A stretch of DNA of 64,000 nucleotides from Streptomonospora nanhaiensis (GTDB lineage: Bacteria; Actinomycetota; Actinomycetes; Streptosporangiales; Streptosporangiaceae). This document shows, one piece after another, positions 1 through 5,456 of the stretch. The stretch covers positions 3,844,001 to 3,908,000 of the forward strand of contig NZ_JACCFO010000001.1 in NCBI RefSeq assembly GCF_013410565.1, read 5' to 3'. Within the stretch, counting starts at the first letter, position 1; each line of letters starts with the position of its first letter. A program made the position numbers and the translations under genes. The notes under the pieces were generated by a model, which did no database searches, was not told where the DNA came from, and saw nothing but the letters and a program-made list of their open reading frames with translations.

Positions 1-378
1 CTGGCCGTCGACCAGCCACGCCGGTTTCTCGTCGTCGGACTGGGTTTCGTCGACCGGTATGACGAGCTCCCCCGGCACCGCGTAGTCAACACTCCCGGTC
101 GGGCCGTGGCTGACGAACTCTACTCGGCGGTCGAACGCCAAGACGATGGCGTTCGGCAGCATGGCGCCGTCGGACTCCAGGTAGCGGCGGATGGCGCGGA
201 TGTGGCTCAGTACTTCGGGCCGCTGGTACCCCTGCAGATTCTTCTCTTCGTCCCTGTGGATTCGAGACACCGCGGCAAAGCCGTGCATCTTCTTGCCGTC
301 CACGGCGAAGCAGTAGATCCGTCGACTTCCTTGGCGAATCTCCAAGGCCGGCAGTCGAAGGGTGTAACGATCGGCCAC
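1..378 (-). CDS. Second DGQHR/ParB-like protein, C-terminus outside window
   Basis: The reading frame runs off the left edge, so only the first 126 residues are visible. GTG at 378 is chosen because AGGAG sits about 6 nt upstream on the minus strand. The protein parallels the DpdB-like protein at 1635-2765: GYQRPE at residues 50-55 is followed by a helix with a YLESD motif, a PNAIVL strand, and a PAWLVDGQ segment at the edge. This is the start of the DGQ(H/Q)R motif of the DndB/ParB-like superfamily. It lies 39 nt after the DpdA-like gene, so it is probably the fourth gene of the leftward operon. By family, it probably assists or regulates DNA modification. Two such proteins in one operon is unusual. 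Identity as a DGQHR protein is fairly sure; the exact role is inference. Confidence 0.75.
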   Translation of the reverse strand, partial: MADRYTLRLPALEIRQGSRRIYCFAVDGKKMHGFAAVSRIHRDEEKNLQGYQRPEVLSHIRAIRRYLESDGAMLPNAIVLAFDRRVEFVSHGPTGSVDYAVPGELVIPVDETQSDDEKPAWLVDGQ

Positions 379-417
379 ATTATCTCCTAGGTCAGATGGC
401 AGGATACCAGGCATCCA

Positions 418-1638
418 TCATGCGATGTCGAGTTCCCGCATCTTTGATTCGAGCACAGTCAGATTGTGGAAGCCCCTGCGTTTGTTTCTTTCTGTGCCCC
501 GAAAGATCGCGATTTCGATCCCGTGCTCTCGGCACAGGGCGCAGGGACATGTTTTCCAGGGGGAAGCCTCAAGGGTTCGACGATAGAAATCGATATAGCT
601 CTTTTTCTTCGGGCCATTGGCGAGTGCCTCGTATATCGCCAAGGCATCGATCACGTCATCGAGGTCGGCTTCACCTAGGTCGAAGGCGCGGAGTCGTTTG
701 AGGCATTCTCGTTCGGCTACAACCGCCTCTGCCTGGGATACTGTTCCCGACAGTATGCGGCGTTTAAGGGACGGGTTTCCGTCAACCTGTGGTACACGTA
801 TGGCGGTGAAGGACTCGTTCCGGGTATGGTAATTGTTGCGATCGTCCATGAAGGACTGTCGAAACGCTGAGGTGCTGTCAAAACTCGTTACGCCGTAGTC
901 CTTGAATTTCGCCATGCTGTCAACACGGGTGATGCCAAGGAGGTGGAGTTGTGTGTCGTCCGCCCTTACCGCATCAATCTCTTCCAGGCACGCGAGGATC
1001 TCGGCAGTCTTCAGGGGGACCATTCCGCCGAGGGCGATCCGGCGGTAGCCCATTGCCTGCAGTTGCTGGACGCTGTCGGCGTAACTCTTCGGGCTCCAGC
1101 CTTGGGCTGCGCCTACGGGTTCGAGGCTGGCCTTGCGCTGCCTGACTTCGGCAATGAAGAGTTCGGCCAGGTTCAACGATATGGATCGGCGGTCCACCCA
1201 CGCGGGATCCACGTCTCTGTCATCGGCGGCTGGAGTGAACCCGAAGATGACATGGTCAATGCTTACTCCTGCGTCGAAACCGCACCCTTCGTAGAAGTCA
1301 AGCACTTCATCTACGGTATACGGAGGATGCTCCTCGTCGATGTAATTAAATGCACCGCAGTCACCCAGGGATTCCATACCCTCCGGAAGTCTGAAGAAAC
1401 GGCGTACCCCCATTCGGTAGAGTCGCGCGCGTTGCGCCGAAGTGTACTTTCCCGAACCCTTGGCTGATCCGTCGACAATCGCCTTGCTGACGAGGATGCC
1501 GTCGTAGGGTTGGGATCCGACTACCTCGTGGGCGTAGAGGTCGTCACGTTGGCGTACGCGCGTTGGCGAGTACTCATCGCTGAGGAAATCATAGGTGGGG
1601 CTGACCAGGTCCTGACTATCGGGGAAATAGAACTTCAC
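418..1638 (-). CDS. dpdA: DpdA-like DNA 7-deazaguanine transglycosylase
   Basis: This 406-residue protein looks like a tRNA-guanine transglycosylase redirected to DNA. It has a GDCGAFNYI strand (92-100), a SIDHV segment (126-130) with the expected catalytic Asp region, an ALGGMVPL strand (202-209), and a C-terminal zinc site C364-x-C366-xx-C369 with H391. DpdA enzymes swap guanine in DNA for preQ0, made by QueC/QueE/QueD, whose genes lie divergently 2 kb away. The GTG start at 1638 overlaps the TGA of the DpdB-like gene (GTGA), showing translational coupling. The length fits DpdA better than an ordinary bacterial Tgt with PUA. Substrate (DNA) is inferred from the DpdB-like neighbours. GC content is lower than in most genes of the window. 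Confidence 0.85.
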   Translation of the reverse strand: MKFYFPDSQDLVSPTYDFLSDEYSPTRVRQRDDLYAHEVVGSQPYDGILVSKAIVDGSAKGSGKYTSAQRARLYRMGVRRFFRLPEGMESLGDCGAFNYIDEEHPPYTVDEVLDFYEGCGFDAGVSIDHVIFGFTPAADDRDVDPAWVDRRSISLNLAELFIAEVRQRKASLEPVGAAQGWSPKSYADSVQQLQAMGYRRIALGGMVPLKTAEILACLEEIDAVRADDTQLHLLGITRVDSMAKFKDYGVTSFDSTSAFRQSFMDDRNNYHTRNESFTAIRVPQVDGNPSLKRRILSGTVSQAEAVVAERECLKRLRAFDLGEADLDDVIDALAIYEALANGPKKKSYIDFYRRTLEASPWKTCPCALCREHGIEIAIFRGTERNKRRGFHNLTVLESKMRELDIA

Positions 1639-2765
1639 GACGCGCTTGCCCTAGCCTGAACATATACACGAATAAGGAAATTTGAGAGAGTGCTGATATG
1701 TCGCGGAGTGTTCTGAAGTTCGTTCCAGTTGACACCGAGTTCCGGCCAGCGTCCCTGTGTCCAATGGCATTGTTCTTTTATTACCGACAATTCTCCGCGT
1801 GCGCTGAGAATCGGATCTTCGGTGTTCAAGTCCACATTCGCCATGACCTTGTCCATAAGGCGGCCCATGGCTCGGATTCCGACTCCGTGCATCAAGCGAC
1901 TCTTTGTAGGAGGCAGTCCCCATGCGTTGGGAAACGTCTCACGCACCGCAGACCAATAAGTGATGAGAAGGCGGCGGATGGTGACTGTGTCGGTGGTGTT
2001 GTTGGACAGGTTTCGGTGCAAAAATAGGATACCGGCGGATGAGTTCAGCGATTCCTCGATCGCGGTGATCAGGCCGTTGTCAGCGATCACCGCGCCGCGC
2101 TTGTCCGAGCCGGTGGAGGCTCGTTTGATCATTCCGCGCAGCGGGGATTCAGGATCCTGGTTGAGCACGTCTACCAGGGCCGATGGCAGTTTTCGTGCCG
2201 ACAGCTTGGCGGGAAGCGGGGTCCACACCTCTGGCAGGAGTTCTGAGACAAGATTGCTCGGGAGCGGCGAAACGGTGTTGACGCGAAGAAACTGCTCGCG
2301 CTGAGTCGGGATGTCTTCGGCGACAAAGCCGGCGGCGGTGACGGGCAGCCTTGTCCTCCGGGTACGGGACAACGCCAGACTGCGCTGCTGGCCGTCGACG
2401 ATCCAGGCGGGGCGAGGCTCGGCGTCGGATTCAGGAAGTGGGATCTCCAGCGTTCCGCTGGTCGCCAGGCCGTCAAAGGAGGAGGGGCCGGGACTCGAAC
2501 GAAAGCGCACCGACTTGGGCAGCGCCAGGATCAATCCATTGGGGAAGAGGACCTCATCGCTGTCAAGGTACTCAAGGATCTGCTTGACATGCTGCTTCTT
2601 CTCCGGGCGCTGGTATCCGATGAGCTTTCCCGCATCGTCGCGCGAGATGCGGGCCACATCGGCAACCTGGCTCACCTCCTCGGCCGCCAGGGTGAACACA
2701 TAGAGCGGCACTTCGGAGTGCTGGTGAATGCGCAGAGCCCGGCGCTTGAGGACGCGACCGCCCAT
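1635..2765 (-). CDS. dpdB: DpdB-like DGQHR-domain protein
   Basis: A 376-residue protein with GYQRPE at 50-55, YLDSDEVLFPNG at 66-77 and PAWIVDGQQRSLALS with DGQQR at 124-128. These are the marks of the DndB/ParB-like DGQHR family. In known Dpd systems DpdB works with DpdA to put preQ0 into DNA and is needed for modification. It overlaps the preceding gene by ATGA at 2765 and the dpdA-like gene by GTGA at 1635, so the three are translated as one coupled set. Its best visible relative is the truncated gene at the left window edge. DndB of phosphorothioation systems shares the fold, but the dpdA and que neighbours argue for the deazaguanine role. Confidence 0.82.
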   Translation of the reverse strand: MGGRVLKRRALRIHQHSEVPLYVFTLAAEEVSQVADVARISRDDAGKLIGYQRPEKKQHVKQILEYLDSDEVLFPNGLILALPKSVRFRSSPGPSSFDGLATSGTLEIPLPESDAEPRPAWIVDGQQRSLALSRTRRTRLPVTAAGFVAEDIPTQREQFLRVNTVSPLPSNLVSELLPEVWTPLPAKLSARKLPSALVDVLNQDPESPLRGMIKRASTGSDKRGAVIADNGLITAIEESLNSSAGILFLHRNLSNNTTDTVTIRRLLITYWSAVRETFPNAWGLPPTKSRLMHGVGIRAMGRLMDKVMANVDLNTEDPILSARGELSVIKEQCHWTQGRWPELGVNWNELQNTPRHISTLSNFLIRVYVQARASAS

Positions 2766-3655
2766 CAGGCGCCCATCGTCTGTGCGTACAGCATGGCGAA
2801 CCGCTTCTGCTCGCAGGCCCTTCCGCTTTCCCGGAGCAGTCGGTGCAGTCTTGTCCTGGAGTACTCGGGATGCTGCTCCGTCTGTACGCGGATGAACGCA
2901 CGTACGGCTTCATCACTCATAGGTGTGCGGTCATACCTTTCGGGGGATCGCACCGACTCCGCCCACCGAGTCCAGGCGGCAGTGGTGTCGGACGACGTCA
3001 GACGACCGGCTGGGCTGCAGTGTTCGAGCCAGGAGATCGCCATGCGGACGTTCAGGCTCGTCAGTGTCCCACCCAGAGCGCGGCGCAAGGCCCTGTTGGC
3101 CGGCACGCGTTGAATACCGGTCACGTCTCTGTCTCCTCCCACAAGGAGGACGTCATCTCCTGCCTCACCCAACGCACACAGTTCCGCGTTCAAAGCCGTG
3201 GCGTATACCTCAGACAGTACAAGCAGCACGGGGCCACGCTTGGCCAAGTCCTGGAGGCGGGCGGCTCCTCGCGCTGCCTGGAGACGTGCCCACCAGCGGA
3301 TCCGCTCCTCGCTGGTGGAGGCCACAGAGTCGGCGTGCCGAGGGCTGAGCGCGGCGGCATAGGAAGGGGCGGTCGCTAAGGCGGGCTGCAGTCCCAGCCC
3401 AGCTGAGACCACCCACAGTTCAGGAGTGAAACCCGCCTGACGAGCGCGCTCGATCAGTGCACCGACCTGCACCCAGTGCTCACCCTTGTAGAGCCGGTTC
3501 AAGGGGAGATGATCGTCAGCCCGGTCGATGCGAGCCGTCCAGACGCTCACCCGATGGTCGACGTCCCCCTCGGGGAGCGTCTGCACCCGCAAGTCTGGGT
3601 CCGGAGTCGTTATCTTGCGGTCCGTGCAGGTAACTACCAACGACAGTTGCCTCAC
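2765..3655 (-). CDS. Unrecognised first gene of the Dpd-like operon
   Basis: A 296-residue protein that I do not recognise with certainty. The N-terminus has CTDRK at about 10-14, then LYKGEHW, a VVSAGLGL strand and PSYAAAL. This pattern resembles the DUF6884/YaaA-like proteins found near deazaguanine and nucleic-acid modification genes, but the match is by eye only. The second half has LLVLSEVYA and [16 protein letters not shown], then a helical C-terminus. GTG at 3655 follows GGGAG about 9 nt upstream. As the first gene, overlapping dpdB by ATGA, it very probably serves the same system. It occupies a place where a modification-tailoring enzyme (DpdC-like, converting preQ0 in DNA) or a nuclease could sit. 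Neither is shown by the sequence. Confidence 0.55.
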
Positions 3656-3765
3656 GCGGACTGACTCCCTGTGCTTCTAACTCGGGCATGAGCGCCCGCT
3701 ACTCTACCGGTCGGTTGCGAGCGCTATGCTCGCGGGGATGTTGCTGTCAACTGAAGGGCGATGAC
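3656..3765. promoter_or_regulatory. Divergent intergenic control region of the Dpd/que operons
   Basis: The 110 bases between the leftward operon (GTG at 3655) and queC (ATG at 3766) must hold both promoters. A TATGCT hexamer at 3724-3729 lies 37 nt before queC and could be its -10; I see no good -35. No preQ1/preQ0 riboswitch fold is evident in this short space. Confidence 0.35.
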
Positions 3766-4461
3766 ATGGAGCGACCTGCGATCGTGCTGCTCAGCGGGGG
3801 CCTGGACTCCACCACCGTCCTGGCAATCGCGAAAGACCGCGGCTTTGCCCCTTACGCGCTGAGCTTTCGATACGGTCAGCGCCACAGCGTCGAGCTCGAG
3901 GCAGCGCAAAGGGTCGCTCAGACGATGTCCGTGGTGCGACACGTGGTTGCCGACATCGATCTTCGCGTCTTCGGTGGTTCGGCGCTGACTGATGATATCT
4001 CCGTTCCCAAGCACGAGAGCGTGGACGAGGTCGCCTCTACGAGCGTGCCGATCACCTACGTTCCGGCCCGCAACACGGTATTCCTCTCCTATGCATTGGC
4101 CTACGCCGAAGTCGTGGGGGCGTTTGACATCTTCACTGGAATCACTGCGGTGGACTACAGTGGGTATCCCGACTGCAGGCCCGAGTACGTTGAGGCGTAC
4201 GAGAAGATGGCCAATCTCGCGACGCGCGCTGCGGTCGAGGGAAAGCAGCGGCTAAGGATTCACTCGCCTCTAATCGAGATGTCGAAGGCGGACATCGTCC
4301 GCGAAGGGCTTCGCCTTGGTGTGGACTACTCGCTGACTTCGAGTTGCTATGACCCCGACGAGCAGGGAAGGGCGTGCGGGCACTGCGACACATGCCTGCT
4401 CCGGCTCAAGGGATTTTCCGAGGCCGGCGTCACTGACCCGATCCGGTATCAGGACGCCTAA
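3766..4461 (+). CDS. queC: 7-cyano-7-deazaguanine (preQ0) synthase QueC
   Basis: QueC turns 7-carboxy-7-deazaguanine into preQ0 using ATP and ammonia. The 231-residue protein has the adenylation P-loop SGGLDSTT at 10-17, the [19 protein letters not shown] block, an [16 protein letters not shown] block and the zinc site C194, C204, C207, C210 (ACGHCDTC). ATG at 3766 is chosen over upstream starts because the conserved AIVLLSGG begins at once and AAGGG lies about 8 nt upstream. It is followed two bases later by queE and then queD, so the three form an operon that feeds the divergent Dpd genes. folE is not in the window; FolE would come from elsewhere in the genome. Confidence 0.96.
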
Positions 4462-4463
4462 TT

Positions 4464-5099
4464 ATGCGTTATTTTGTCAAAGAGATCTTCTATACTCTGC
4501 AGGGAGAAGGCAGCCACGCCGGCCGGCCTGCGGTCTTCTGCCGCATGTCACGTTGCAACCTGTGGACCGGCTACGAAAAAGATCGCCATCGGGCGATCTG
4601 CAAGTTTTGCGACACCGATTTCGTTGGCACGGACGGCGTTGGGGGCGGGCGGTTTCAATCGGCGGAGAAATTGGCGGACGCGGTTGAGCGCGCCTGGCCG
4701 TCGGAATCACGGGGCCATCGGTTCGTGGTGTGCACCGGTGGTGAGCCGCTCTTGCAGTTGGACGACGCGGCTGTGGCCGCTCTACACGAGCGAGGTTTTG
4801 AGGTAGCTGTCGAGACCAATGGCACCCGGCGTCCGCCTCGAGGAGTTGACTGGCTGTGCGTAAGTCCAAAAATCGGGGCTGAGCTGGTGGTTTCCGAGGG
4901 CGACGAACTGAAGTTGGTCTACCCGCAGGCCGGAGGTGACCCCGCACAGTTCGAACATCTGGATTTCGGTGTTTTCCGGTTGCAGCCGATGGATGGTCCT
5001 GAGTTGGCGGCCAACACCGAGGCAGCCGTTGAATACTGCCTCAAGAACCCCCGGTGGCGGCTCTCGCTGCAGACGCACAAATATCTGGGGATTCGTTAG
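4464..5099 (+). CDS. queE: 7-carboxy-7-deazaguanine synthase QueE
   Basis: QueE is a radical SAM enzyme converting 6-carboxy-5,6,7,8-tetrahydropterin into 7-carboxy-7-deazaguanine. The 211-residue protein shows the QueE-specific cluster motif C31-x14-C46-x2-C49 (not the usual CX3CX2C), as in Burkholderia-type QueE. It also has LQGEGSHAGRPAVF at 12-25, VVCTGGEPLLQ (the GGE SAM motif), VETNGT and WLCVSPK. It starts two bases after queC, and queD follows without a gap. The length is typical. Nothing looks broken. Confidence 0.96.
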   Translation: MRYFVKEIFYTLQGEGSHAGRPAVFCRMSRCNLWTGYEKDRHRAICKFCDTDFVGTDGVGGGRFQSAEKLADAVERAWPSESRGHRFVVCTGGEPLLQLDDAAVAALHERGFEVAVETNGTRRPPRGVDWLCVSPKIGAELVVSEGDELKLVYPQAGGDPAQFEHLDFGVFRLQPMDGPELAANTEAAVEYCLKNPRWRLSLQTHKYLGIR

Positions 5100-5456
5100 A
5101 TGGAAATATTTCGAGAGTTCACCTTTGAGGCGGCCCATCGGCTTCCCCGTGTCCCGGAAGGGCACAAGTGCGCGCGTCTTCATGGGCATTCATACCGAGT
5201 GACCGTGCACCTGGACGCTGAAGTCGACCCGCAGGCGGGTTGGGTCATGGACTTCGGTGAAGTGAAGCAGGTTTTCGAGCCTATTCGGGCACAACTTGAT
5301 CACTACTATCTCAACGAGGTTCCTGGACTGGAAAACCCGACAAGCGAGAATCTGGCGCAGTGGATATGGAGGCGCCTGGAACCGGCTCTTCCGGAACTCT
5401 CTGCGGTAACCATCCGGGAGACGTGTACCTCGGGAGTCACGTTCCGGGGGAGGTAA
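5100..5456 (+). CDS. queD: 6-carboxy-5,6,7,8-tetrahydropterin synthase QueD
   Basis: QueD makes 6-carboxytetrahydropterin from dihydroneopterin triphosphate, the first committed step to preQ0. The 118-residue protein has the three zinc histidines H13, H28 and H30 (AAH, HGH), the catalytic C24 in [26 protein letters not shown] and the C-terminal IRETCTSG. The ATG directly follows the queE stop (TAGATG), so translation is coupled. This is the last gene of the que operon and marks the right edge of the lower-GC island; bases after it are much richer in G and C. Confidence 0.96.

Follow-up and report, generated by a model that had tools for sequence, protein, structure and literature searches.

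An apparently orphan gene of Streptomonospora nanhaiensis as the dpdC of a Dpd island

What is already known of DpdC? In one published account, the DpdC step is given as the hydrolysis of dPreQ0 to dADG (PMC12839542), and according to the GATOR-GC survey, dADG in Salmonella Montevideo requires dpdC (PMC11888242). As to the protein family, dpdC is already given as a DUF6884 protein by the GATOR-GC authors (PMC11888242), and as DUF328/YaaA elsewhere (PMC12839542). CxxxK and LSAxxG motifs are described for DUF6884, as is a fold that is related to YaaA and has a cleft for binding DNA (PMC11701544). YaaA, according to its descriptions, binds DNA and has a part in oxidative stress, without known enzyme activity.

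Here, we have gone through a stretch of 64,000 nucleotides of the S. nanhaiensis genome (the window), near the left edge of which lies a gene that seemed to be unassigned, because a Pfam search with its product was blank and NCBIfam gave a single weak match to an IS3 transposase and no DpdC. It is a gene already known in kind, an ordinary dpdC of a Dpd island. Thus, an apparently orphan gene gets an assignment, and the window turns out to hold one end of an essentially complete Dpd restriction-modification island.

Identity of the gene and its operon

The open reading frame at 2765..3655 on the minus strand, with a GTG start at 3655 and a TGA stop at 2765, encodes a protein of 296 amino acids. 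It is a true gene, having full-length homologues of 35-63% identity in the same gene order in other genomes. A preliminary description, made from the letters of the window, had placed the first gene of a Dpd-like operon at this very position, where dpdC does open a compact operon, and both the frame and the motif pattern quoted for its product (19 residues, and PSY) are present as described. It had also held that the product is not a known Dpd protein, and this, together with the label of an unassigned gene, is ruled out by the PADLOC model of DpdC (PDLC02817), which matches residues 1-295 of the protein on positions 1-295 of 299 with an E-value of 4.5e-117. A PDB search with the sequence gave nothing useful, and a PDB profile search (A1) nothing meaningful.

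Does the PADLOC label really correspond to the DpdC of the enterobacterial system? As a check, we took the 'hypothetical protein' whose gene lies upstream of dpdA in an Enterobacter Dpd island that is annotated as such (L018, full frame from 18962). It matches PDLC02818 at 2e-159 and also PDLC02817 at 2e-36, and it aligns with the window protein at about 22% identity with the invariant residues in register. We are highly confident that the gene at 2765..3655 is the dpdC of the island. Its function is most likely the established DpdC step, in which the nitrile of DNA-bound preQ0 is hydrated to the amide (ADG). It is to be noted that the reaction from dPreQ0 to dADG is taken from the published Salmonella system, while the family, the gene set, the synteny and the motifs come from the present analysis. 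The preliminary description had guessed at a new enzyme for a DpdC-like step; the role in that step stands while the novelty does not, and the guess came close since the gene is DpdC itself.

Downstream of dpdC on the same strand follow dpdB1, encoding a DGQHR/DndB-like protein (1635..2765; NCBIfam NF041060, E 1.3e-120), dpdA, encoding a TGT-like preQ0 DNA transglycosylase (418..1638; NF041059, E 3.8e-190), and the start of dpdB2 (1..414; NF041060, E 1e-159), which runs 738 bases past the left edge of the window and occupies C1:3843263-3844414 of the genome. An ATGA overlap had been claimed for the dpdC-dpdB1 junction, which actually reads TGATG, so that stop and start share one base at 2765; the overlap between dpdB1 and dpdA is four bases (GTGA). 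On the plus strand, divergent from dpdC, lie queC for preQ0 synthase (3766..4461; PF06508, E 1.3e-74), queE for 7-carboxy-7-deazaguanine synthase (4464..5099; TIGR04508, E 1.6e-103) and queD for 6-carboxytetrahydropterin synthase (5100..5456; TIGR03367, E 3.9e-33). A scan of the sequence between dpdC and queC (3656..3765) for consensus promoters found none.

The island, its relatives and its two dpdB genes

Just outside the window, to the left, the same genome carries the rest of dpdB2 and then a set of genes facing the other way, dpdE, F, G, H, J, K and D together with a short gene at the position of dpdI, between dpdH and dpdJ. Matches of dpdD, E, F, H, J and K are over the cut-off, and that of dpdG is weak (6.7e-9). 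The gene at the dpdI position (L021:11421-12110, plus strand) has no match in PADLOC or NCBIfam, and counterparts of 28-45% identity occupy the same place in related islands; it is likely to be dpdI, an assignment made by position. Because dpdB2, dpdE, F, G, H, J, K and D and this likely dpdI are all there, the island is essentially complete. Its G+C content is 58-67%, a sharp drop from the value of about 73% beyond its borders. Of the six genomes of the genus, the DpdA model finds a match in this one and none in the other five. The island was therefore probably acquired horizontally, and likely in recent times.

All the genes of the preQ0 supply set, folE, queD, queE and queC, are found in the genome, which has two genes for GTP cyclohydrolase I (folE). 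The TGT family model PF01702 has no match in the genome. With folE present and PF01702 without a match, nothing points to a use of the preQ0 genes for queuosine in tRNA, and they seem to be devoted to DNA modification.

How common is this arrangement? A strong DpdC match is found in 14 of 299 genomes of the taxonomic family and in 2 of 396 genomes sampled across the phylum, the source genome being counted in both. All of the 13 other strong loci of the family have queC, queE, queD, dpdC, dpdB1, dpdA and dpdB2 together, and the same set came out of an independent scan in Crossiella sp. SN42. At 12 of these 13 family loci, the stretches fetched contain dpdD, dpdJ or dpdK as well; such restriction genes (dpdD-K) near dpdC are common in Dpd systems, not obligatory. 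Two weak DpdC homologues (G276 and G033) sit outside any Dpd island. A tblastn search of plasmids with DpdC found nothing despite the existence of plasmid dpdA genes, and this shows that DpdC diverges fast.

Here and in the related actinobacterial islands examined, the order is dpdC-dpdB1-dpdA-dpdB2, with two dpdB genes flanking dpdA. A tree built from 21 DpdB proteins separates B1 from B2 by a branch with full support, and both keep the DGQQR motif; the single DpdB of the Enterobacter island groups with B2 on a long branch. Judged from this tree, dpdB1 and dpdB2 are ancient paralogues, and their products may act as a hetero-complex. The GATOR-GC survey counts 801 extra dpdB copies, and the text consulted does not describe this arrangement (PMC11888242).

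Fold, motifs and the probable reaction on DNA

An alignment of 16 sequences of the DpdC family shows no variation at ten residues of the window protein, C10, K14, Y56, G58, W61, S84, A85, G86, G88 and Y99. They include the CxxxK motif (C10-TDR-K14) and the SAxxG motif (S84-A-G-L-G88). Pfam DUF6884 matches 12 of the 16 members (best E 1.9e-5), the window protein being below threshold, and YaaA (PF03883) matches 6 of the 16 (best 6e-4). The AlphaFold (AF2) model of DpdC has a pLDDT of 90.5 and places a DUF6884/YaaA-like domain at residues ~1-211. The preliminary description had proposed such a fold, and structure prediction with a fold search as its check; these point to it, the best PDB match being E. 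coli YaaA (5caj), although its significance is only borderline (Z 8.0 and rmsd 5.3 for 182 residues; Foldseek E 0.038). Models of phage DUF6884 proteins and of YaaA match that of DpdC with a probability of 1.00, viral DUF6884 models on top.

The last 85 residues, modelled separately, form a helical domain that folds on its own (pLDDT 81.6), with an HTH-like part at residues ~244-296. The weak IS3 transposase match of NCBIfam (E 0.0035, residues 241-292) was followed as a hint of an HTH, and a Pfam search with C-terminal fragments gave no relevant match. The C-terminal model resembles the HTH domains of PAX, FapR and Fur at only Z 5-6.2, with the unrelated YqeY and MutYX scoring just above, and the resemblance in the model may be a common arrangement only.

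Since dPreQ0 is reported to be converted to dADG (PMC12839542) and dADG to depend on dpdC (PMC11888242), the likely mechanism is nitrile hydration on DNA. FolE and QueD, QueE and QueC would make preQ0, and DpdA, aided by the DpdB ATPase (two paralogues here), would exchange selected guanines of DNA for it. DpdC would then bind the preQ0-containing DNA and add water to the nitrile, and the resulting dADG would mark self for the restriction operon dpdD-K.

Might the protein instead be a descendant of dpdC turned into a YaaA-like DNA-binding accessory that no longer hydrates the nitrile, so that the DNA carries dPreQ0 only? The closest solved structure is indeed that of a protein described as binding DNA and not as an enzyme, and the distance in sequence from the enterobacterial DpdC would also fit. 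However, the match to DpdC is full-length, and actinobacteria and Enterobacter share the invariant residues of CxxxK and SAxxG along with a good number of aromatic positions. In addition, PMC11888242 reports both dPreQ0 and dADG in Dpd-modified DNA, a result given for a group of organisms, among them the actinobacterium Kineococcus. This makes loss of the activity very unlikely. More improbable still is a new tailoring enzyme that yields another base in place of ADG, such as an ArcS-like amidine product, although this nitrile is also the one on which ArcS works in nucleic acids, and a functional parallel between ArcS and DpdC has been raised (PMC6884629). The protein matches DpdC fully, shows no detectable profile similarity to the one or two ArcS sequences compared, and has beyond QueE no amine-donor or radical-SAM partner among the identified island genes.

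How would DpdC hydrate the DNA-bound nitrile? A tentative idea, for which we claim no great likelihood, is that DpdC might hydrate the nitrile on DNA without a metal, by an attack on preQ0 from the Cys that never varies in the CxxxK motif; DUF6884/YaaA might then be a catalytic fold, perhaps common to ArcS, and not a mere DNA-binding fold. To go by invariance, Cys10 could be the nucleophile forming a thioimidate intermediate with the assistance of Lys14; the SAxxG strand-loop might shape a base-flipping pocket, and the C-terminal helical domain might contact DNA. If the Cys mechanism is true, DUF6884 proteins, which are widespread in phages and bacteria and uncharacterised, would become candidate enzymes.

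Comparison with described families

ArcS, the archaeosine synthase core (PF17884; AF0587, 2q07), also acts on the preQ0 nitrile in nucleic acid, and by eye a short motif with a Cys, placed ahead of an Ile/Val-Ser strand, resembles that of DpdC. Profile comparison of DpdC with ArcS by hhalign, with one or two ArcS sequences only (Vibrio phage nt-1 ArcS and part of AF0587), yielded probabilities of 8.7% and 0.6%, too low to show a relation, and AF0587 is absent among the fold matches listed for the DpdC model. As to the phage, VPFG_00173 was rejected as its ArcS after a PF17884 search; VPFG_00169 (L044:14416-15096), annotated as hypothetical, matches this domain, which is rare among the phages of the collection searched, with 3 records in all.

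E. coli YaaA (PF03883, DUF328; 5caj), the top structural match, is 9% identical to DpdC over the aligned part. DUF6884 (PF21818, e.g. B. subtilis YfjM) has the CxxxK and SAxxG motifs in common with DpdC, whereas DpdC is longer, with an added C-terminal helical domain. The closest system is the bacterial DpdC of the Salmonella Montevideo type (PDLC02817, PDLC02818), which has the same full-length family, the same neighbourhood and the same partner genes; the S. nanhaiensis protein differs from enterobacterial DpdC in the low identity given above, and its island in having two dpdB genes.
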